28,738 nt of DNA, taken from the IMG/VR virus record IMGVR_UViG_3300003702_000026, positions 1-28,738 of that record, one strand, 5' to 3'. Under the pieces are notes generated by a model. That model did not search any database, had not been told where the DNA came from, and saw only the letters and a program-made list of their open reading frames with translations. Source of the DNA: a virus. Shown here in pieces: positions 1 through 28,738 of this stretch. Within the stretch, counting starts at the first letter, position 1. Each line of letters begins with the position of its first letter. The translations under genes and the position numbers were made by a program.

Positions 1-1450
1 AAGCAGAACTAATAGTATACTCCATTGGATATGAACTTGTTTTTGCCTGATTTCGTAGCGAGCAGCAATATGTGCCTGTTAATGTACTCTTGACCCAGAA
101 GCTGAGCGTTACTGTCATCGCCTCCGCTGTGCCGAATGCAACATGCGCCATATCGTGCCCTTCGACGCGATGTTGCATAATAAGGTATTTACCGGACACG
201 TTTGTATCTGCTGTAGTGACATCATATTTCATTGAGTAATTGAATTTTATTCCAGCCTCAGCCGCGGTGGGCGTATCGCTGTCTTGCGTTACTGTAACAA
301 CACCATCATCGGTGCTGTTCCAAGTCCGCATCCTATCGATAGTGTAATCGCCGTTGCCGACAGCCGCGAAGGTGGTTCCTCTTTGTGATACCCTCATGTC
401 GCCGTTGATAAGCATATTGCCGGTGCCGCCTCCGCCGCCTGATGCAGCCTCGAGGCTGATTTGGCCGGTGCTATTGTTGTATGTTAGCACATAGTTGTCT
501 ACACCGCTGGCCATAGCTTGATCGGAATCAAAGCGTAGATTGCCGAGAAATACATCCCCGGTACCGCTGGTGACCAAATGAATATCCTGGTTAGTTACCG
601 CGCTTATAATATTATAACCGGCAATATCAAGATCACCGCCCAATTGGGGTGTTGTATCTTCTACAACATTACTAAGGCCGCCGGCGCCGGAATTATTAAC
701 AAAAGACAAGTTTCCTGAGCCATCAGTTTTTATAACTTGTCCATCATCACCGTCGGCGTTAGGCAGTGTAAAAACTACTGCGCTTGCTGTGCTAGTCGGT
801 GCTTGTATTTTTATACCATTTCCGGTTGTACCTTCTTCGAAGAATACATACGTTGTTCCGCGTAATCTAATACCATCAGTAAACAATACTTCGGGTTGTG
901 TACTGTCATATATGACGTTACCATTCGTATCTAAGCCTCCACCAAGTTGCGGTGTTGCATCTTCTACGATATTACTAAGGCCGCCTCCACCGCCTGCGCT
1001 GGCTTCGAGACTGATCTTACCGCCGGAGTTGTCATATGTTAACACATAGTTGTCTTGTCCAGAACCCACCGCCTGATCAGCATCAAAGCGTAGATTACCA
1101 AGTAATACATCACCAGTGCCGTTAGGTTCGATATCAATATTGCCGTTGCTGACACTTACTATCTTGTTACTGTTTACATCAAGGCTTCCGCCCAATTGGG
1201 GTGTTGTGTCTGCTACTATATTAGTTAGATAAGACTGTAAATCACTAATCTGAGATTCTGTAATACTTAACGCCGAGTTATTGACGCTGATTACGACATC
1301 ACCAGCTGTGTTTACTACTTTAGTAATACCAGTACTGGCGACAATATCGCTGTCTTCCAGTTTATCTGTGTTTATATTTGTAAGGTTACTATCCATCTCA
1401 GTGTGAGTGAGAGCTGAACCTTTTCCTAATCTTGTAATTATTGTGGCCAA
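1..1450 (-). CDS. Long tail fibre protein, N-terminal part (runs off the left end)
   Basis: A fibre protein open for 483 codons from a TTG start at 1450 to the window edge. The start is chosen because AGGAGG lies 8 bases upstream, directly after the stop of the preceding gene, and because it gives the typical opening MATIITRLGKGSALTHTEMD. The protein contains three degenerate repeats of the type V(E/A)D(T/A)TPQLGG.LD and two copies of a block with GTGDV.LGNLRFD followed by DNYVLTY. Then come Gly-rich linkers, a NMLINGDMRVSQRGT segment, a YTIDRMR segment and a carbohydrate-binding-like SFWVKS..TGTYC.SLRNQ region. These are familiar modules of receptor-binding fibres in aquatic phages. The C-terminus is missing here. 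The partial gene at the right end of the window carries the expected missing C-terminal type, so both are probably one gene cut by linearisation. Confidence 0.85.
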   Translation of the reverse strand, partial: MATIITRLGKGSALTHTEMDSNLTNINTDKLEDSDIVASTGITKVVNTAGDVVISVNNSALSITESQISDLQSYLTNIVADTTPQLGGSLDVNSNKIVSVSNGNIDIEPNGTGDVLLGNLRFDADQAVGSGQDNYVLTYDNSGGKISLEASAGGGGGLSNIVEDATPQLGGGLDTNGNVIYDSTQPEVLFTDGIRLRGTTYVFFEEGTTGNGIKIQAPTSTASAVVFTLPNADGDDGQVIKTDGSGNLSFVNNSGAGGLSNVVEDTTPQLGGDLDIAGYNIISAVTNQDIHLVTSGTGDVFLGNLRFDSDQAMASGVDNYVLTYNNSTGQISLEAASGGGGGTGNMLINGDMRVSQRGTTFAAVGNGDYTIDRMRTWNSTDDGVVTVTQDSDTPTAAEAGIKFNYSMKYDVTTADTNVSGKYLIMQHRVEGHDMAHVAFGTAEAMTVTLSFWVKSTLTGTYCCSLRNQAKTSSYPMEYTISSA

Positions 1451-1467: not shown

Positions 1468-1986
1468 TTATTTATAGCACCACCGGCTAAAATCATCGGC
1501 GGTGATCATGCATTTAATCTGCTTTGCCGGGCTTTGGCAATATACTTTCCAATATTGTTCTTTAAATCTTTTGGGCCGTCTAATCATGCTGCCTTTAATT
1601 GGGTGGTTGTGAAATCTATGTGCTGTGCCCAGCGTAATAACATCAAAACCTATACAGTGTATGTATCTGGGATTAAATTGTTGAGCAAGTTGGATACCCA
1701 TAATACCGGTTAAACTTTCAGTATTACTGCCCACTACTTCACTGACCTGCCACTTGGTACTCCACGGTGGCTTAGTATACAAGGGTATTCCCGGCGCGTT
1801 TTCGCGATTGTATTTTACCCAGTGTTCATCAGCAGCAACTATTAGATCAACGTCTACGGGTATCTGTTCCCAGTTTCCATTGGTGCTGATTATTCTTAGA
1901 TTCGGATCGATTCTGCTCCATTCGAAACTATACACAGTGGCACCGTTGCCCACTACTAAAAAGTCGAGTGGCGTTAGATCGGACAA
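1468..1986 (-). CDS. Possible Rossmann-type glycosyltransferase-like protein (DUF115/sialyltransferase-like)
   Basis: About 172 residues. The start is taken as TTG at 1986, with GGAG 8 bases upstream, just after the methyltransferase stop; a longer TTG-started frame extends to 2052 but has no good ribosome site. Near the N-terminus the protein reads LDFLVVGNGATV, a nucleotide-binding-like beta-strand/turn. It continues with IISTNGNW and VDLIVAADEHW, and later TGIMGIQLAQQF followed by IHCIGFD. This order (VGNG near the start, then a TG..A.QLA helix and an (I/V)..IGFD strand) recalls DUF115 and bacterial sialyltransferase-like Rossmann folds. I infer a sugar-transfer or nucleotide-sugar-binding role, possibly modifying the fibre or host surface. 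The assignment is weak. It lies between a DNA methyltransferase and the fibre gene in the same leftward transcription unit. Confidence 0.55.
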   Translation of the reverse strand: MSDLTPLDFLVVGNGATVYSFEWSRIDPNLRIISTNGNWEQIPVDVDLIVAADEHWVKYNRENAPGIPLYTKPPWSTKWQVSEVVGSNTESLTGIMGIQLAQQFNPRYIHCIGFDVITLGTAHRFHNHPIKGSMIRRPKRFKEQYWKVYCQSPAKQIKCMITADDFSRWCYK

Positions 1987-1999
1987 TGCTGCTTCTCCA

Positions 2000-3097
2000 T
2001 CAGGAATCCCATGCAAATAATTCCAGTGATTTAAGTTTGATCCAACCCTCAATTCTTTTCTCTGCTATATCGCAATAGTGCTTATCTAATTCAATTCCTG
2101 TAAATTCGTGTTCCAATTCCATTGCAGCCATTCCGGTACTACCGCTACCCACGAAAGGATCTAATACCTTGCTATTAGGCGGCGTTACTAATTTAATTAG
2201 GTATTTCATTAATGCAACCGGCTTGACTGTTGGATGGTGATTCCCCATCTGTTTTGCTTCTACTTCTTTAATTTGTGCTTTTGGATCGGCATTATGTTTG
2301 CTTGCCATTCTATAATCAAATCCGTGCGGTACTTGAAATTGTGGGCCTAATGCCGCATTGTGTGCTCTAATTTTATTCGTTAGACGATGGAAGCTAGTCC
2401 CAATACTTGGATCCCATAACGGATGCTTTTTCATTTCCCCGGGGTTATTAAAAGGTTCTGGATCTGGCAATTGTTCAAATCCACAATGCCTTTCTTTCCT
2501 GCCAACCTTTGGACAATAAAAGAACTTCTGATAACCTTCAACTTCGCCTATGATATTGGAAGGGAAACGACCTTCCGGCCTATTATCTTCTTCGTATGGA
2601 ATCCTACTCTCGTCTATATTAACAGCACCGACACCGTGTTCTAATACATTGTCTATACAGCTACCCTTAAATGGTTTCCTTGCCATTACAATAGGTTCGT
2701 GTGCGGGTTTTAATGCTGTCTTCCAACCTGCCCATTGTTTGGCGTCCGGCGATGTTGCACCGGGCCTCTTCTGTATAGCCTTACCTACATCTTGGGCCTT
2801 TGGAAAACCGGAACCATTCAGCCACATAATCTGATCGCGTATTTCAAAGCCGACTGATTCTATATTAGTTGCTAAATGATGATATGTTTTTGGTGCCGAA
2901 AAGGCGAGTATATATCCACCGGGCTTTAAAACTCTTAAGCATTCTTCCCAGGTTTCTATAGCGCCTGTATTCTTATCCCAGTCCTTGGCAAGGAATTCTA
3001 TGCCATAAGGGGGATCGGAAATAATGCTGTCAAAATAATTGTCGGGATATGTCTTGAGGACGGCAATATTATCACCGTTGATAATATTATAACTCAT
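2000..3097 (-). CDS. DNA methyltransferase, beta-class N6-adenine/N4-cytosine type
   Basis: A site-specific DNA methyltransferase of 365 residues transferring a methyl group from S-adenosylmethionine to adenine N6 or cytosine N4. Motif IV, SDPPYG, is near residue 30. An HPTVKP element and the SAM-binding motif I, VLDPFVGSGSTG, are near the C-terminus. Motif IV preceding motif I marks the beta (permuted) group. The start is the ATG at 3097, which overlaps the stop of the upstream gene as ATGA; a TTG four codons earlier is less likely. No restriction endonuclease gene is next to it, so it is an orphan in this window. Its likely job is to protect phage DNA from host restriction or to mark it for regulation or packaging. 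The target site cannot be told from sequence. Confidence 0.9.
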   Translation of the reverse strand: MSYNIINGDNIAVLKTYPDNYFDSIISDPPYGIEFLAKDWDKNTGAIETWEECLRVLKPGGYILAFSAPKTYHHLATNIESVGFEIRDQIMWLNGSGFPKAQDVGKAIQKRPGATSPDAKQWAGWKTALKPAHEPIVMARKPFKGSCIDNVLEHGVGAVNIDESRIPYEEDNRPEGRFPSNIIGEVEGYQKFFYCPKVGRKERHCGFEQLPDPEPFNNPGEMKKHPLWDPSIGTSFHRLTNKIRAHNAALGPQFQVPHGFDYRMASKHNADPKAQIKEVEAKQMGNHHPTVKPVALMKYLIKLVTPPNSKVLDPFVGSGSTGMAAMELEHEFTGIELDKHYCDIAEKRIEGWIKLKSLELFAWDS

Positions 3098-3282
3098 ATA
3101 ACTCTGCAATATGAGACTTTTTCAAGATTCTCTATTCTTTCTTCCTGAAGCCGCAACAGGCCCAGAAGCTGTTCATTTACGTCGGTCTGTTTATTTAAAC
3201 TCTGCGTTAACGTGTCCAGCTGGAGATTCAATTGCACCAATATCGTCCAGGGATCTTGACCGTCATATGCTGTATTCTTCAT
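3094..3282 (-). CDS. Small coiled-coil protein, function unknown
   Basis: 62 residues, rich in Leu, Gln and Glu with heptad-like spacing (ILVQLNLQLDTLTQSL and LLGLLRLQEERIENLEKV), so most of it should form a coiled coil. It is the first gene of the leftward unit, starting about 75 bases downstream of a good sigma70-type promoter, and overlaps the methyltransferase start as ATGA. The ribosome site is weak. No family is recognised. Position and translational coupling make it likely to be a real gene. It might be a small oligomeric structural or regulatory protein. Confidence 0.6.
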   Translation of the reverse strand: MKNTAYDGQDPWTILVQLNLQLDTLTQSLNKQTDVNEQLLGLLRLQEERIENLEKVSYCRVI

Positions 3283-3528: not shown

Positions 3529-3614
3529 TCATATAGGCTACCTTTTATAAATAACTGTGGAGATCGAGATAACAAGGGTTTAAGGCAAGACCACAAGAGC
3601 GAAGGAGAAACAAA

Positions 3615-4079
3615 ATGACTATACCCCTCTACAGAAATTCATACGAGAAATGGCTAGATAGGCAACAGGACATCGCTGCAATTAACAGCTTGGAGCCTAC
3701 GCACGCCGTTACGTTTAACACCTATCTAATGCTTACATGCGGAAAAACACTGCAATTAGTGCGTGAATTCGAACGGCGAATGAATAGGCAAATATACGGC
3801 ACACAATCAAAACAAAAAACACATAGGCTTAACTGGATACACAATTTTGAATTAAAAAGCGGAAACGCACATATGCACAGCGTGGTAAAACTAAGTGATA
3901 GCGAAGCAATCATTTTTAACACACATGCAAGGCACATTTGGCACAAAGTAGTTAAACAAGGCACACAAGGCACACAAGGCACACAAGGCACAAAGGCAAA
4001 ATTATGGCTAGACGATTACTCAGCCGGCGTTGCTGTCTACATAACCAAAGGCGGCGCTATGGTAGGAACTACTGCTTAA
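3615..4079 (+). CDS. Small HUH-endonuclease-like protein, putative rolling-circle replication initiator
   Basis: 154 residues starting at ATG with GAAGGAGA 7 bases upstream. Three elements appear in the order and spacing of Rep proteins: motif I-like AVTFN (31-35), the metal-binding His-hydrophobic-His HMH (86-88) preceded by NFELKSGNA, and a YxxK motif YITK (142-145) carrying the presumed nucleophile Tyr142. FERRMNRQIYG before the HUH and a W..V region after it also resemble small HUH-like proteins of alphaproteobacteria and their phages. By family, such enzymes nick one DNA strand and stay linked through the tyrosine. Here it would act at a nearby origin, with hairpins and palindromes on both sides. 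A GTQ repeat (116-126) lies between the HUH and tyrosine motifs. The protein ends soon after YxxK, with no helicase domain. The fold assignment is fairly good; a role in replication is inference. Confidence 0.65.
   Translation: MTIPLYRNSYEKWLDRQQDIAAINSLEPTHAVTFNTYLMLTCGKTLQLVREFERRMNRQIYGTQSKQKTHRLNWIHNFELKSGNAHMHSVVKLSDSEAIIFNTHARHIWHKVVKQGTQGTQGTQGTKAKLWLDDYSAGVAVYITKGGAMVGTTA
3957..3998 (+). repeat. Tandem 9-bp repeat inside the HUH-like gene
   Basis: The 9-base unit AAGGCACAC recurs three times in a row and a degenerate fourth follows, encoding GTQ GTQ GTQ GT. The unit length is a multiple of three, so copy-number slippage would keep the frame and change linker length between the HUH and tyrosine motifs. 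Confidence 0.85.
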
Positions 4080-4137: not shown

Positions 4138-4159
4138 GACGCACTGAATTCAGTGTGTC
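4138..4159. repeat. 22-bp palindrome centred on GAATTC
   Basis: The two 11-base halves are reverse complements except for one G-T position (GACGCACTGAA against TTCAGTGTGTC). It lies 58 bases after the HUH-like gene and 2 bases before a second, perfect palindrome. It could be a terminator stem, a Rep-binding cruciform or an origin element. Confidence 0.75.
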
Positions 4160-4161
4160 CG

Positions 4162-4185
4162 CAATGAACATTATAATGTTCATTG
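4162..4185. repeat. Perfect 24-bp palindrome, possible terminator or origin cruciform
   Basis: The halves CAATGAACATTA and TAATGTTCATTG are exact reverse complements with no spacer. A short TTTT follows, so a transcript could form a hairpin and weak terminator for the HUH-like gene. The AT-rich centre also suits strand extrusion at a replication origin. Confidence 0.75.
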
Positions 4186-4214: not shown

Positions 4215-4281
4215 ATCATATACTTTTATACTACCAATCATATACCCCACCTTACTCCTTACATCATATACTTTTATACTA
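4215..4281 (+). repeat. Iteron-like direct repeats upstream of the five-gene set
   Basis: ATCATATACTTTTATACTA occurs exactly at 4215-4233 and 4263-4281, and its first nine bases recur at 4237-4245. Start-to-start distances are 22 and 26 bases, near two helical turns. They could be binding sites for a replication initiator or regulator. Each full unit also holds TATACT, so they may be tandem promoter -10 elements for the gene at 4328. The whole 4080-4327 gap holds only these repeats and the two palindromes. Confidence 0.7.
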
Positions 4282-4327
4282 TCCATTATACATATGCTAA
4301 ATAATTATACAACAAGAAAGAACTGAT

Positions 4328-4630
4328 ATGAACGATCACGAACAAGCAAAAGCAACCAAAGCAGCCGGATGTAGGTTATACTACCTAAAAAACAAGGAAC
4401 ACCTTAAAGCCAAAGCAGCCGCTTACTACAAGGAACACCGAGAGCGGATAAAAGTCGATATGAGACGGCGCAGAAGGGAAACCGATACAACGGCCTACGA
4501 TACGGCATACCGAGCGGCTAATAAGGAAAAGCTACGGGTAAAGTCCGCTGCCTATTACAAAGCCAATAAAGAGATGATAGCAGCTAAAAGAAAAGAAGCC
4601 AAACGATTAGCAGCCGGAGTTGTCATATGA
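4328..4630 (+). CDS. Charged helical repeat protein (YY..NKE..K repeats)
   Basis: 100 residues, very basic, with repeated units such as YYLKNKEHLKAKAAAYYKEH and YRAANKEKLRVKSAAYYKANKE. A similar 'aromatic pair - Asn - Lys-Glu - Lys' repeat occurs in the genes at 5193 and 5459, so the three are paralogues. Repeats of this type are common in phage proteins and in N-terminal parts of some phage HNH proteins, but a function is not established to my knowledge. High charge and predicted helix suggest nucleic-acid contact. It opens a rightward operon of five genes coupled by ATGA overlaps. The ribosome site is weak (AAGAAAG). Iteron-like repeats precede it. Confidence 0.7.
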   Translation: MNDHEQAKATKAAGCRLYYLKNKEHLKAKAAAYYKEHRERIKVDMRRRRRETDTTAYDTAYRAANKEKLRVKSAAYYKANKEMIAAKRKEAKRLAAGVVI

Positions 4631-5196
4631 AACAAAACACACAGCAACAACGCCGCGAGCTATCTACCCTTGTATCTTCAATAACAAATGAAATAAAGTC
4701 AGAAGTATATACCCTAAAGATTCAAGATATAAAGCTGATCAAGCTCGCAATCAAGAACAGACTGGATAACCCCTCAATTGAATTCAATGCCAAAGAAACA
4801 ACATTTATTAAATCAGTACTAAACAACTTATCCGGCCGGACTAACCCAATGACTACAAAGCAACTGGTCTGGCTCCGATCAATATTGCAGAAATCAGAAC
4901 CAGACAATGCAGCGAATAAAGTAGCTGATTGGTTCCCAGTTATTTCAATGGGCAGTTTACTGCATCCGTGGGCATATAGCAAAAAGACAAGCGAAGTAGA
5001 TGAAGTAGCACTTTCATATGATGATACAGACTTACTCAGCAGGGAAATTGGAAAAGTATTGGGCTATGCCAGCCACAAATACACTGCTAAGCAAAGAGAG
5101 TTCCTTGAGTCGTTGTCCAAGCGCCTACCACACAATAGCAAAATTACAAGCAAACAGCTTAATTGGCTCTGGACATTACTGGACAAGCACAAATGA
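4627..5196 (+). CDS. Unknown protein with two internal T.KQL.W repeats
   Basis: 189 residues starting at the ATG that overlaps the previous stop as ATGA. It has an internal duplication: FIKSVLNNL followed by MTTKQLVWLRSILQK near residues 60-90, and FLESLSKRL followed by ITSKQLNWLWTLLDK at the C-terminus. The N-terminus is Gln-rich and polar; the middle holds SYDDTDLLSREIGKVLGYASHKYTAKQ. A related T.KQL.W motif begins the product of the gene at 6128. No enzyme motif is seen. The repeats are probably helical protein- or nucleic-acid-binding modules. It interrupts a series of three paralogous YY..NKE genes within the same operon. Confidence 0.7.
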   Translation: MKQNTQQQRRELSTLVSSITNEIKSEVYTLKIQDIKLIKLAIKNRLDNPSIEFNAKETTFIKSVLNNLSGRTNPMTTKQLVWLRSILQKSEPDNAANKVADWFPVISMGSLLHPWAYSKKTSEVDEVALSYDDTDLLSREIGKVLGYASHKYTAKQREFLESLSKRLPHNSKITSKQLNWLWTLLDKHK

Positions 5197-5462
5197 CCGA
5201 ATCAATAGAAAGACGTAATAAACGGTTAGCCTACCATCGCGCCTATTACATAGCCAACAAGGAAAAGCTATGTCAAATGCAAAAAGACCGATATCATGAA
5301 AATAGAGAAACAATCCTCGCTAAGCATGCAATATGGGCTAAAGATAACAGAGAATATCTCAACGAATATCACAGGGAATGGCGAGCAAAAAATCCCGAGA
5401 GATGGAAACAACTGAATATGAAGTCAAATGCAGCAGCGAAAGAAAGAGCTAAAGTGAAATGA
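5193..5462 (+). CDS. Charged helical repeat protein, paralogue
   Basis: 89 residues from the ATG at 5193 (MTESIERRNKRLAYHRAYY), which overlaps the previous stop as ATGA; a longer TTG-started frame is unlikely. It holds repeats YYIANKEKL, YHENRETI and KDNREYL, and ends with HREWRAKNPERWKQL. The last block is nearly identical in protein and DNA to the next gene, including 23 identical bases at 5383-5405 and 5682-5704, pointing to recent duplication. Basic and predicted largely helical; possible DNA or RNA binder. No function is assigned. Confidence 0.7.
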   Translation: MTESIERRNKRLAYHRAYYIANKEKLCQMQKDRYHENRETILAKHAIWAKDNREYLNEYHREWRAKNPERWKQLNMKSNAAAKERAKVK

Positions 5463-5758
5463 CCACCAAAGAAGAAAAAGCAGAGAGAAGACGCGACTGG
5501 GTAATCAAAAACAGAGAAAAACTCAGGCAATATTACAAAGATTACTACGCGAGAAATGAAGAAAAAATCAAGGCATATGCCAAGGCTTATTACGCAGAAA
5601 ATAGAGAAAAAATGAATGCGAAATATTCGGCTTGGCAAAAAGCACACCGGCCACACATGGTTGAATATCACCGAAAATGGAGAGCAAAAAATCCCGAGAG
5701 ATGGGCCGCGCTTCGTGATAAAGCAGTAAAAGCGTATAAATTGAGGAATAACAAATGA
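5459..5758 (+). CDS. Charged helical repeat protein, paralogue
   Basis: 99 residues from ATG overlapping the previous stop as ATGA. It has four repeats (NREKLRQYYKDYYARN, EEKIKAYAKAYYAEN, REKMNAKYSAWQKA, then HMVEYHRKWRAKNPERW) and a basic tail. It is the clearest member of the YY..N.EK repeat set at 4328, 5193 and 5459. Regular spacing of about 13-14 residues suggests a helical solenoid or extended helix. Role unknown. Confidence 0.7.
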   Translation: MTTKEEKAERRRDWVIKNREKLRQYYKDYYARNEEKIKAYAKAYYAENREKMNAKYSAWQKAHRPHMVEYHRKWRAKNPERWAALRDKAVKAYKLRNNK

Positions 5759-5976
5759 CCCCTTTCCTACGCAGAGCACTACAAACAATAAAAGAAAAAA
5801 AGCTGAGGGAAGCCCGGGACACAGCGGCTGCGGTTGCCGACTTGAAGAAGTTTGTGGCCAACACTGAGCCAGTTCTACCGCCGAACTGGGTTGAGCCAAC
5901 AAAGAGAATCATCGACTCAGAAATCCAAAATCTGTTGAAGAAGACGGGCTACATCTTGCCAGATCAAGAAAGTTAA
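5755..5976 (+). CDS. Small hypothetical protein, last of the coupled set
   Basis: 73 residues from ATG overlapping the previous stop as ATGA. The N-terminal half is a basic amphipathic helix (FLRRALQTIKEKKLREAR) continuing into AAAVADLKKFV. The C-terminal half holds PVLPPNWVEPTKRIID and ends LPDQES. No family is recognised. It closes the five-gene operon and is followed by a hairpin terminator. Confidence 0.6.
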   Translation: MTPFLRRALQTIKEKKLREARDTAAAVADLKKFVANTEPVLPPNWVEPTKRIIDSEIQNLLKKTGYILPDQES

Positions 5977-6001
5977 TGCTGAGGAATCCAGTGACCAGGT
6001 G

Positions 6002-6024
6002 TTGCCAATTGGCAATGGTTTTTT
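6002..6024 (+). terminator. Rho-independent-type terminator after the five-gene set
   Basis: TTGCCAATTGGCAA is a perfect 14-bp palindrome followed by TGG and a run of six T. It sits 26 bases after the last stop and directly before the first repeated promoter. Confidence 0.6.
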
Positions 6025-6037
6025 CTGTCAAAAACAG

Positions 6038-6073
6038 TTGACCTATAGCGTATATGTGCTACTATATAAGTAG
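6038..6073 (+). promoter_or_regulatory. Rightward promoter copy 1 with dyad over the -10 region
   Basis: TTGACC (6038-6043), 16-base spacer, TACTAT (6060-6065) preceded by TGC as in extended -10 promoters. CTACTATATAAGTAG (6059-6073) is an inverted repeat over the -10, a natural place for a repressor. The sequence from CAGTTGACC through AAGTAGGAAATGAGAAAGAAAT is repeated at 6423. Confidence 0.8.
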
Positions 6074-6127
6074 GAAATGAGAAAGAAATCACTATTGTAA
6101 AAAACCTCAAAAGGAGGTATCGAAAAG

Positions 6128-6400
6128 ATGAATAAGCTTTCCCTAACAGACAAACAACTTAAATGGGTGGTAGAGCAATTTTATGCGGCTGACATTGAAA
6201 CCCATGTTGACATTGATCCTGACCACAATCTTTCTTTCCAATTAATCGATTGGCAACAAAAGATACTCGAGGAACTTCCCGCGGATTTTTTATTCGATTG
6301 GCAAAAAAAGATGAGACGGGACTATCCCGATGATTACCTTGATGAAGACCTTAATGCTGTCTATAGGCCTAAAATTTACACTAAAAAACACCCGTTTTGA
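6128..6400 (+). CDS. Acidic small protein, function unknown
   Basis: 90 residues with a very strong ribosome site (AAGGAGGT, 9 bases before ATG). The N-terminus LSLTDKQLKWVVEQFY matches the T.KQL.W repeat of the gene at 4627. The rest is acidic and Trp/Asp-rich, with WQQKILEELPADFLF and WQKKMRRDYPDDYLDED. The final codons and the TGA lie inside the terminator hairpin at 6383-6412. It stands alone between promoter copy 1 and that terminator, a one-gene cassette. Small acidic early proteins of phages often act on host proteins; here that is only a guess. Confidence 0.7.
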   Translation: MNKLSLTDKQLKWVVEQFYAADIETHVDIDPDHNLSFQLIDWQQKILEELPADFLFDWQKKMRRDYPDDYLDEDLNAVYRPKIYTKKHPF

Positions 6401-6412
6401 GGTGTTTTTTTT
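6383..6412 (+). terminator. Terminator copy 1
   Basis: AAAAAACACC and GGTGTTTTTT form a 10-bp stem with an 8-base loop, ending in a T-run. The stop codon of the 90-residue gene lies in the loop. An almost identical hairpin ends the next gene (6804-6832). Confidence 0.85.
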
Positions 6413-6422
6413 CAAAAAACAG

Positions 6423-6458
6423 TTGACCTATAGCGTATATGTGCTACTATATAAGTAG
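6423..6458 (+). promoter_or_regulatory. Rightward promoter copy 2 with dyad over the -10 region
   Basis: TTGACC (6423-6428), 16-base spacer, TGC-TACTAT (6445-6450), identical to copy 1 including the inverted repeat CTACTATATAAGTAG (6444-6458) and the leader AAATGAGAAAGAAAT. It drives the gene at 6511. Confidence 0.8.
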
Positions 6459-6510
6459 GAAATGAGAAAGAAATGTTTCTTTTTTATATACGAAAGACGG
6501 AAAATCGAAA

Positions 6511-6780
6511 ATGACAAAAATGTTAGACAACATCAAAAATGCAGACCCAAAGACGCACTTATCTGCTAGCGAACTTCTATGCGTGCGAAACGCAATAATG
6601 AAAGCCTTAAGTGGTCTCGGCTTTGAGATAGGCGGCGGCGGCACATCGCTATGGTCCGAAAAGCCTGTATGTGATATCGGATTTAGCTGTGGCGACAGAT
6701 TGTTTGATATCGAATTGGCAGAAGTGTGGGCACCAAATGAATCAGATATGCCACTGGATAATGAGCTCCTTGATGCCTAA
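6511..6780 (+). CDS. Small protein, paralogue of the gene at 6950
   Basis: 89 residues. It shares with the gene at 6950 the opening (M.K.LD..KNADP), the block ELLCVRNAI..AL, and the block FEI...GT....PVCDI.FSC. The leaders are also alike (GACGGAAAATCGAAAATG). Residues PVCDIGFSCGDRLFDIELAE suggest a small beta-rich domain with two conserved Cys. The ribosome site is poor. It forms a one-gene cassette between promoter copy 2 and terminator copy 2. No function is recognised; likely an early or accessory phage protein. Confidence 0.65.
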   Translation: MTKMLDNIKNADPKTHLSASELLCVRNAIMKALSGLGFEIGGGGTSLWSEKPVCDIGFSCGDRLFDIELAEVWAPNESDMPLDNELLDA

Positions 6781-6803
6781 AAAATAGGCCTAGAATTTAC
6801 ACT

Positions 6804-6832
6804 AAAACACCCGTTTTGAGGTGTTTTTTTTT
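6804..6832 (+). terminator. Terminator copy 2
   Basis: AAAACACC and GGTGTTTT form an 8-bp stem with the same 8-base loop as copy 1, followed by a T-run. The preceding bases (GGCCTAGAATTTACACTAAAA) also match copy 1, showing duplication of a whole terminator segment. Confidence 0.85.
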
Positions 6833-6863
6833 GACAAAAACAGTTTTTTTCTGTCAAAAACAG

Positions 6864-6899
6864 TTGACAAACGGTAAATCCGTGCTACTATAATAGTAG
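6864..6899 (+). promoter_or_regulatory. Rightward promoter copy 3, consensus -35, dyad over the -10 region
   Basis: A perfect TTGACA (6864-6869), 16-base spacer of different sequence, TGC-TACTAT (6886-6891); a TATAAT also starts at 6889. The dyad CTACTATAATAGTAG (6885-6899) is symmetric at all but its centre. The spacer has diverged from copies 1 and 2 while the dyad is kept, which argues the dyad is functional. Confidence 0.8.
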
Positions 6900-6949
6900 G
6901 AAATGAGAGAGAAATGTTTCTTTTTCATATGAAAGACGGAAAATCGAAA

Positions 6950-7444
6950 ATGTCAAAAATATTAGACAAACTCAAAAATGCAGACCCAAGCATGGCTTGT
7001 GCCATGGGCTATACGGACGATAATGGAGACCCAAAGCCACGATCTGCTGATCAGATATCTGTTGCTGAACTCTCTTGCGTTCGGATGGCCATAACAGATG
7101 CGCTTGATCCCGCTGGTTCCATATCCAAAGCCTTTAAAGATCAAAGCTTTGAGATCTCGACTACCGGGACGACTTTTAGCGACCCCCCTGTATGTGATAT
7201 TACATTTAGTTGTGAAGGCAAAGAGTACTTCATCAGCTTGCGCGAAGCTGCGTCCTATCCGGAGCAGCTGGCCAGCCGCGCAAAAGATACGCAGCCGCTT
7301 AAGCGGCTCCTTAAGGAGCAAGCTAAATTCCCTAGTACTCAAAAACTATCACCTAGCGTGAAAGAGTACGTGATGAGCTTGAAAGCTGAGATTGTCAATC
7401 TCACATTGCAATTGCAAGCTGAGATCGACAAGGAGACAGTGTGA
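6950..7444 (+). CDS. Unknown protein, longer paralogue of the gene at 6511
   Basis: 164 residues from the ATG at 6950 (MSKILDKLKNADP). An in-frame ATG at 6914 exists, but alignment with the leader of the gene at 6511 shows that 6914-6949 is untranslated leader there. Compared with its paralogue it has an insert after KNADP and a longer C-terminus with two helical blocks (EQLASRAKDTQPLKRLLKEQ and VMSLKAEIVNLTLQLQAEI), the latter coiled-coil-like. It ends DKETV through the shared linker that also gives the start of the next gene. It heads a four-gene operon under promoter copy 3. Function unknown. Confidence 0.7.
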   Translation: MSKILDKLKNADPSMACAMGYTDDNGDPKPRSADQISVAELSCVRMAITDALDPAGSISKAFKDQSFEISTTGTTFSDPPVCDITFSCEGKEYFISLREAASYPEQLASRAKDTQPLKRLLKEQAKFPSTQKLSPSVKEYVMSLKAEIVNLTLQLQAEIDKETV

Positions 7445-7447
7445 TGA
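7430..7447 (+). repeat. Gene-junction linker copy 1 (AAGGAGACAGTGTGATGA)
   Basis: An 18-base sequence combining a ribosome site (AAGGAG), the codons for KETV, a stop TGA and the next ATG overlapping by one base. Exact copies lie at 7771-7788 and 8181-8198. Confidence 0.9.
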
Positions 7448-7785
7448 CGAACGATAATTTGATCCCCAACGACCCTAGGTTTCATTCGCGAATGAAAACA
7501 CGCCGCCAAGCAGGCGAGCAACTAAAAGAGTTGCTAGAACGAGAACGTAACGAGCTAGAAGACGAGTTCGTTGCAGACAACATTGTAATGCTTGTGCAAC
7601 GTGCTCAGCACGATGTATTACACGGCACTGGTAGCGTTCAAATGTGTGAGGATACTGATTTGGTAGCGGATGCGGTTGCTGAACAAATGAGAGGGATTAA
7701 TGGCCCCGGTTGGAAATACAGCACAGACGACGTAATTGAGCTAATTGATGAAGAGTCAGGCGTTTTCGACAAGGAGACAGTGTGA
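7444..7785 (+). CDS. Hypothetical acidic protein
   Basis: 113 residues from ATG at 7444, whose first base is the last base of the previous stop; AAGGAG lies 8 bases upstream. The N-terminus is basic then strongly charged and helical (RMKTRRQAGEQLKELLERERNELEDEF). A middle helix VADNIVMLVQRAQHDVLHGTG and an acidic C-terminus (STDDVIELIDEESGVFDKETV) follow. No family is recognised. It lies in the four-gene operon under promoter copy 3 and ends in the same KETV linker as its neighbours. Confidence 0.65.
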   Translation: MTNDNLIPNDPRFHSRMKTRRQAGEQLKELLERERNELEDEFVADNIVMLVQRAQHDVLHGTGSVQMCEDTDLVADAVAEQMRGINGPGWKYSTDDVIELIDEESGVFDKETV

Positions 7786-7788
7786 TGA
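7771..7788 (+). repeat. Gene-junction linker copy 2
   Basis: Exact copy of the 18-base linker at 7430. The identity extends three bases upstream (GAC) and two downstream (CA-type context). Confidence 0.9.
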
Positions 7789-8195
7789 CACACCTTCTAG
7801 TAGAATTACATTCACAACATCCTAACCTGTTGCTTGACTTGTATTTCACGTTTGTCGACTTTGATGGCAACGAGCGTAATTGGAGTATGGGAGATGTCCG
7901 CGGCTTTACTAACGATATGCGTGAGCGTTTGTTTGCCGAAGGCGACGATGTCGCGATTGCCACGGCAATGGCAGCACTTGACACGATGGAACGCAAAGGT
8001 AAAATCACACTTTCTGAAATCAACAATATCAGTTCCTACACGGTTGGAGCCTGTTTAAGCGATGGCAAGAACGGCATCTATGGTTTGAAACATGTTACTG
8101 GCAATATGTATCCGGCAGGTGGTTCCCCCCAGGACCGCCTGAAAGACTATGCGGCGAACAGGACCATATTCCCCAATGAAAAGGAGACAGTGTGA
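7785..8195 (+). CDS. Hypothetical protein
   Basis: 136 residues from ATG at 7785, coupled to the previous gene through linker copy 2. It opens MTHLLVELHSQHPNLLLDLYFTFVDFDGNERNW, then MGDVRGFTNDMRERLFAEGDDVAIATAMAALDTMERKGKITLSEINN. The C-terminal half is Gly-rich (GACLSDGKNGIYGLKHVTGNMYPAGG) and ends in EKETV. No known domain is recognised. It is soluble and mildly acidic, with no membrane segment. It is probably an accessory early protein. Confidence 0.65.
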   Translation: MTHLLVELHSQHPNLLLDLYFTFVDFDGNERNWSMGDVRGFTNDMRERLFAEGDDVAIATAMAALDTMERKGKITLSEINNISSYTVGACLSDGKNGIYGLKHVTGNMYPAGGSPQDRLKDYAANRTIFPNEKETV

Positions 8196-8198
8196 TGA
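8181..8198 (+). repeat. Gene-junction linker copy 3
   Basis: Exact copy of the 18-base linker at 7430 and 7771, joining the genes ending at 8195 and starting at 8195. Confidence 0.9.
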
Positions 8199-8416
8199 AA
8201 ATTCGTGATCCTAAAAATGATAAAATCAAAAGTAATTCTCAACAGTACCGCATTTTTGAACAGAAACTTAAATGTATTCATGAAGATTGTGAATCTTTAT
8301 TAACTATTTTTAAAGGACCCGGTGAGCGTAGTCTATGCAGGATGCACCAAAGGAACCTTCATGACTATGGCGGGTATGGTCGATTAGATAGTAAAAATAC
8401 ATTATCTTCTGGCTAA
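8195..8416 (+). CDS. Small zinc-finger-like protein
   Basis: 73 residues from ATG at 8195. It contains C..(4)..C (CIHEDC), then after about 17 residues LCRMHQRNLHDYGGYGRLD, giving a possible Cys-Cys-Cys-His zinc site. The C..H..L.DYGGYGRLD tail resembles small zinc-binding phage proteins, some linked to HNH-type endonucleases, but no HNH catalytic residues are evident here. It may bind nucleic acid. It is the last rightward gene before the convergent region; base composition is more AT-rich than in the two preceding genes. Confidence 0.6.
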   Translation: MKIRDPKNDKIKSNSQQYRIFEQKLKCIHEDCESLLTIFKGPGERSLCRMHQRNLHDYGGYGRLDSKNTLSSG

Positions 8417-28382: not shown

Positions 28383-28738
28383 TTATAACTCCGCTCGCGC
28401 TGTTGCATGAATTTCGAATTTAATCAGCTCGTCAAATCTTTCGTTTGCGTTCGCGATAAGGCAACCTCCGCGGCCATCCTTGCGAATCTCGGCACTAGTC
28501 GACGACTCATCGTCGGCGGCCGTCCTCCACTGGCCGGTTGTACCACCGCCCGGTGAATATAAAGTAACCGACGGTGCGCCTCGCATCTCCGTCGGCAAGG
28601 ACCACAGGACCATGGGTTCAGTACTTAACGAGGCGTCTATTCCTTTGTCCTGCGTTGCTGGTAGCGAATGATCGAATTCAACGTCATCGCCGGGAACAGT
28701 GTCGTACCGGAATGTCTTCGCATAATACCTCTGGCACC
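28383..28738 (-). CDS. Long tail fibre protein, C-terminal part (enters from the right end)
   Basis: 118 codons open from the window edge to TAA at 28383. An internal ATG at 28613 would give only 76 residues and is not the true start. The frame opens CQRYYAKTFRYDTVPGDD and continues SLPTEMRGAPSVTLYSPGGG, a familiar C-terminal domain of long fibres that also carry NMLINGDM..SQRG and SFWVKS domains. Those preceding domains lie in the partial gene at the left end. If 1 and 28738 are joined the frame is kept (TGG codon across the joint), but about 90-100 residues of the usual domain would be missing. Confidence 0.85.
   Translation of the reverse strand, partial: CQRYYAKTFRYDTVPGDDVEFDHSLPATQDKGIDASLSTEPMVLWSLPTEMRGAPSVTLYSPGGGTTGQWRTAADDESSTSAEIRKDGRGGCLIANANERFDELIKFEIHATARAEL

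Follow-up and report, generated by a model that had tools for sequence, protein, structure and literature searches.

How a tailed phage can begin DNA synthesis when no replication enzyme is recognisable in its genome is the question raised by IMG/VR virus record IMGVR_UViG_3300003702_000026, whose 28,738 nucleotides, the whole stretch analysed here, are referred to as the window. A first-pass annotation of the sequence had read an open reading frame at positions 3615-4079 as a very small HUH-endonuclease-like Rep, and had proposed that the phage starts synthesis by nicking with this protein and leaves the rest to host enzymes, giving multimers for terminase. We therefore asked whether the protein is an HUH Rep, whether the genome contains anything else that could replicate it, and how probable the initiator role is.

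A real early gene encoding little more than a putative catalytic domain

The open reading frame at 3615-4079 on the plus strand (rep) is a real gene: it possesses a ribosome-binding site region (cgaAGGAGaaacaaa, 3600-3614, plus strand), with AAGGAG just upstream of its ATG start codon, and phage-like codon use. With a codon-use score trained on the phage's large genes, the rep frame scored best (+0.09) while the other five frames gave -0.64 to -0.98. It is the first gene of the plus-strand early cluster, and its 154-aa product is assigned as an HUH endonuclease with a single catalytic tyrosine on the combined basis of PHROG, HMM, alignment, fold and codon-use evidence. The motifs that the first-pass annotation had named are present in order at HAVTFN 30-35 (AVTFN 31-35), HMH 86-88 and YITK 142-145, and the PHROG and HMM matches described below put them beyond chance. 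The protein stops 7 residues past a GG pair, with almost nothing outside the catalytic domain, and contains low-complexity GTQ repeats between the motifs. A frameshifted tail was sought in the DNA behind rep and was not found, the reading frame being intact.

Sequence profiles and predicted fold point to the HUH superfamily

Pfam, NCBIfam and PDB sequence searches with the window protein alone gave no direct match, and searches of viral contigs, genome contigs, plasmids and phage records turned up no close homologue. PHROG searches matched it to phrog_10883 (E 2.6e-4) and to phrog_3419, 'rolling circle DNA replication initiation' (E 4.5e-4), two families that inovirus Reps match too. In a tblastn search of 50,697 phage records only two matches appeared, one of them in the filamentous phage XaF13, where the protein is annotated as 'replication gene A protein'; this match was weak in that search (E 9) and reached 1e-7 as a single pair; when the two proteins were aligned alone, NRQIYG, a W....E strand, HxH and YxTKGG were common to both. 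XaF13-like Reps were collected from viral contigs, and a leave-one-out HMM of these filamentous-phage Reps, built without the window protein, retrieved it at E 1.7e-6 among 7,339 ORFs, with the next unrelated ORF at 0.31. When the HUH strand was searched for as a degenerate DNA pattern, two unrelated sequences were hit, and scanning viral and genome contigs with the profiles returned inovirus Reps only, or nothing.

Across 10 aligned Reps, W74, E79, H86, H88, Y142, K145, G146 and G147 are invariant; these include the two histidines and the tyrosine singled out at first pass. The HAVTFN segment aligns with the motif I sequences FWTLTFR and FGTFTFR and falls on a predicted strand (29-35), the metal-binding H86-M-H88 lies on the central strand (84-92), and the Y142-I-T-K145 motif sits in a helix (136-144) predicted with low confidence. 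Pfam matches of the relatives were to REP_ORF2-G2P (9/10) and Phage_GPA (8/10), and the Rep profiles score E 1.5e-5 on P2 gpA, over its HUH motif and Y450/Y454, with a weak match to phiX174 A as well; the catalytic domain is thus homologous with that of the P2 gpA, phiX174 A and inovirus two-tyrosine group. Assignment as an IS200/IS605 Y1 transposase was rejected, since there is no Pfam Y1 match, the sequence relatives are Reps and likeness to TnpA exists at fold level only. The Rep_trans family, which uses an Asp/Glu metal site instead of HUH, was likewise set aside, the HUH motif being present and a Pfam match to that family being absent.

Single-sequence AlphaFold gave no usable model (pLDDT 34). 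An alignment-based model, which leans on inovirus sequences, reached pLDDT 63 and pTM 0.62, with pLDDT below 50 in the C-terminal helix carrying the tyrosine, and its order of elements, b1 (motif I)-a-b2-b3 (HUH)-a-b4-a (Tyr), is the Rep topology. The best solved Foldseek matches of this moderate model were AAV Rep nuclease domains and IS608-family TnpA, and VIA comparison gave Z 8.7 with AAV5 Rep (3.0 A over 117 residues) and Z 7.9 with SIRV1 ORF119 (PDB 2x3g; 2.8 A over 104 residues). High ranks in BFVD were held by Reps of microviruses, a parvovirus, CRESS viruses and two 'Siphoviridae sp.' records. The top natural Foldseek and VIA matches of this ferredoxin/RRM-like model are Rep nuclease domains; given that VIA also returns Z 7-9 against unrelated ferredoxin-like folds and that the tyrosine helix is of low confidence, the fold supports rather than proves an HUH assignment. 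Taken together, the sequence profiles and predicted fold uphold the HUH-Rep identity claimed at first pass, and the window protein almost certainly belongs to the HUH superfamily.

The first of two catalytic tyrosines is replaced

What the first-pass annotation missed is that the nearest relatives have two catalytic tyrosines and the window protein only one. Two tyrosines (Y-x3-Y) occur in 28/28 distinct relatives with a readable motif as well as in P2 gpA and phiX174 A. By contrast, the window Rep reads GVAVYITK, in which Gly138 occupies the position of the first tyrosine and only the second, Tyr142, is kept; V141 replaces the lysine that follows the first tyrosine in the same 28/28 relatives. 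The Y-x3-Y pair is therefore lacking, and the glycine substitution marks a related one-tyrosine variant rather than a member of the two-tyrosine class. In phiX174 protein A, one tyrosine initiates and the other terminates, and the one-tyrosine pT181 RepC is active and works as a dimer (review, PMC5714925). With a single tyrosine in place of the relatives' pair, the window Rep would need a second subunit to close a round, or rounds would not be closed. Judged from its sequence, this tailed-phage protein is a near-minimal Rep of the P2/phiX174/inovirus kind and, with its one tyrosine, a new variant.

No other replication enzyme is recognisable in a nearly complete genome

The left end of the window cuts the N-terminal part of a tail-fibre gene (2-1450, minus strand; phrog_4492 positions 785-917 of 1096) and the right end cuts a C-terminal part (28383-28736, minus strand; phrog_4492 positions 992-1095), while the corresponding halves lie 99 and 105 residues apart in two intact tail-fibre homologues. 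Because the two ends represent halves of one gene, the record is, as read from these sequences, permuted or circular and nearly complete, with about 0.3 kb (about 100 codons) missing from a genome of about 29.0 kb. No non-structural ORF tested matches a polymerase, helicase or primase above noise in PHROGs or Pfam, and no recombinase or SSB match was found among the other early genes. The rest of the early cluster (4328-8416, plus strand) encodes small proteins of 73-189 aa without a match to any replication enzyme, and unassigned early ORFs reach 189 aa at most; no relatives were found for the neighbour gene at 4627-5196. A helicase match (phrog_16) of the methyltransferase was rejected as weak and located in the methylase motif region. 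The claim that polymerase, helicase and primase are absent elsewhere thus holds by PHROGs and Pfam in a nearly complete record. Such an absence is nothing unusual among small phages: polymerase-free cyanopodoviruses exist, and viruses with dsDNA genomes under 40 kb tend not to encode a polymerase (PMC9860041).

Other features of the genome were recorded. At 1468-3109 (minus strand), an N4/N6 DNA methyltransferase gene overlaps a sialyltransferase-like gene (phrog_4603), and over part of its length the methyltransferase shares 65% identity with the enzyme of a sibling phage. An 88-nt unit is present at 6017-6104, 6402-6489 and 6843-6930, in copies that are 80-83% alike and that each carry promoter-like boxes (TTGAC...TACTATA) and a ribosome-binding site before a small gene; the genes at 6511-6780 and 6914-7444, downstream of such units, are paralogous at their starts. 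Three small basic paralogous proteins (4328-4630, 5163-5462 and 5459-5758; phrog_36724) contain repeated YYxxNKEK-like units and distantly resemble part of some HNH endonucleases.

Sibling phages lack both Rep and a recognisable initiator

Terminase, portal and tail genes link the phage to aquatic siphophages of about 29-32 kb, including DSL-LC06 and Pelagibacter phages. DSL-LC06 (proposed 'Nanhuiviridae') and HTVC026P are among the closest annotated phages, sharing the terminase (46-50% identity) and a tail protein with the window phage; unlike it, neither gives a Rep match, and the Pelagibacter phage HTVC026P encodes a protein with a DnaD domain. Eight sibling genomes (28.9-31.4 kb), namely the annotated DSL-LC06 and seven IMG/VR records whose genes were gone through one by one, all (8/8) show no Rep and no recognisable initiator. 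Searches of siblings found by terminase and portal, using the protein, PHROG and profiles, detected no Rep, two of these runs having no positive control; of the siblings' unassigned non-structural proteins, ten were compared with replication families and none matched. The DSL-LC06 record (OR003941) has no annotated replication gene; the paper describing this phage reports replication proteins present in all its genomes (PMC10611076). A group of siphophages of about 29-31 kb is thus without a recognisable replication initiator of any kind. Since the siblings are without recognisable replication enzymes and without Rep alike, the absence in the window is a trait of the lineage and argues only weakly for the role of rep. 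Moreover, with Rep missing from every sibling searched, the lineage can apparently do without it, and it is less certain that Rep is the sole initiator.

Candidate origin elements within and downstream of rep

In P2 and phiX174, the annotated origin or nick site lies inside gene A. Inside rep, AAGGCACA occurs five times at 3929-3992 (plus strand), four copies forming a 9-bp tandem array and one being out of phase, and nowhere else in the window. These could speculatively be iterons; part of the array encodes the conserved R106/W109, and coding constraint or slippage may explain the repeats. About 60 bp downstream of rep lies a 22-bp near-perfect palindrome (4138-4159), a candidate origin hairpin, followed by a 24-bp perfect palindrome, CAATGAACATTATAATGTTCATTG (4162-4185), a candidate origin hairpin or terminator; a palindrome as long as 24 bp appeared in 0/60 shuffles. 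A 26-bp perfect palindrome also occurs in coding DNA on the structural side of the genome (27587-27612). Beyond the downstream palindromes, a pair of 28-bp direct repeats (4215-4242 and 4263-4290, spanning 4215-4290) in A+T-rich DNA with no assigned ORF is a possible unwinding region. GC skew tracks gene strand and locates no origin, and consensus promoters and terminators near rep occur at chance level only. The phage origin is perhaps nicked beside the 4138-4185 palindromes or inside rep.

Proposed role of Rep and competing explanations

We consider it probable, at roughly two chances in three, that rep encodes a minimal HUH-family replication initiator of the phage. Rep would bind an origin in the phage genome, where Tyr142 would attack the DNA with a metal held by His86 and His88, and would remain on the 5' end, leaving a 3'-OH. 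Host DNA polymerase III, together with a host helicase of the Rep/UvrD/PcrA type and SSB, would then extend this end and displace the strand. A round could be closed by a second subunit in a dimer, as in pT181 RepC, or be left unclosed, and unclosed rounds would yield head-to-tail multimers that terminase could cut. Of the earlier proposal, the HUH-Rep identity is supported, and initiation by nicking followed by host synthesis, an inferred step, is the best explanation of the findings.

A true HUH endonuclease might nevertheless be accessory, the phage replicating by a host-dependent pathway with an unrecognised initiator, as its siblings must; the protein could then, for example, have been captured from a filamentous phage or plasmid and be used late, in recombination, in interference with competing ssDNA elements or as a transposase-like gene. 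We regard this as rather unlikely. In its favour, the eight sibling genomes show neither Rep nor a recognisable initiator, the inoviral nearest relatives make horizontal capture likely, and the unassigned 73-189 aa early proteins could contain an initiator. Intact catalytic motifs, the position of rep at the head of the early cluster, closest annotated relatives that are replication initiators, and a YxxK-GG context that is Rep-like rather than Y1-transposase-like argue against it. Far less probable is a degenerate or regulatory remnant that, having lost the first tyrosine, its following lysine and a C-terminal tail, binds DNA with no nicking role. The G138 and V141 substitutions, the end of the protein so soon after GG and the GTQ repeats would fit such decay, but His86, His88, Tyr142 and Lys145 are kept along with phage-like codon use, the frame is intact with no frameshifted tail, and activity with a single tyrosine is known from Reps such as RepC (PMC5714925). 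The least probable explanation, that a protein outside the HUH enzymes resembles them by chance in its motifs, draws on the lack of a Pfam, NCBIfam or PDB match by the protein alone and is countered by independent profile, alignment and fold evidence.

Within the preferred initiator reading, a bolder and distinctly tentative proposal, which we would sooner doubt than adopt, is that this lytic tailed phage replicates its genome of about 29 kb with the 154-residue one-tyrosine nickase as its sole replication protein, loss of the second tyrosine of a P2/inovirus-type ancestor favouring open-ended concatemers for packaging over closed unit circles. If Rep is the initiator, few known starters of dsDNA tailed-phage replication would be as small, and it would tie filamentous- and tailed-phage replication modules together; the natural loss of one of two catalytic tyrosines makes the purpose of the second directly testable as unit-circle release versus concatemer formation. 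The finding also points to an aquatic phage group of about 30 kb whose siblings have no recognisable initiator.

Comparison with known systems

The closest known counterparts, the Rep of Xanthomonas phage XaF13 and its inovirus relatives (phrog_10883), share the same domain and the NRQIYG, W....E, HxH and YxTKGG elements with the window Rep at 20-28% identity; by contrast, they are 206-268 aa long, have two tyrosines (YVSKYVTKGG) and belong to ssDNA filamentous phages. P2 gpA is likewise a rolling-circle HUH Rep of a tailed phage, but is 761 aa long with two tyrosines (GYIAKYISK), and phiX174 A has HUH and tyrosine motifs (FYVAKYVNK) in a larger, two-tyrosine protein of an ssDNA phage to which the profile match is weak. 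Two metagenomic tailed-phage records, compared by predicted protein structure, provide small Rep-like proteins that are larger than the window Rep: the 'Replication gene A protein' of Siphoviridae sp. ctOrJ23 (A0A8S5Q2C6, 245 aa) and the ORF2/G2P protein of Siphoviridae sp. cthae16 (A0A8S5URH3, 299 aa). SIRV1 ORF119 (PDB 2x3g, a 116-residue chain), a one-tyrosine dimeric Rep without a helicase domain, resembles it as a minimal HUH protein of a dsDNA virus; the likeness shown is structural, and SIRV1 is an archaeal rod-shaped virus with a linear hairpin-ended genome. The smallness noted at first pass is apparent beside P2 gpA, while small HUH Reps are known, the inoviral proteins being 206-268 aa and SIRV1 ORF119 smaller than the window Rep itself.
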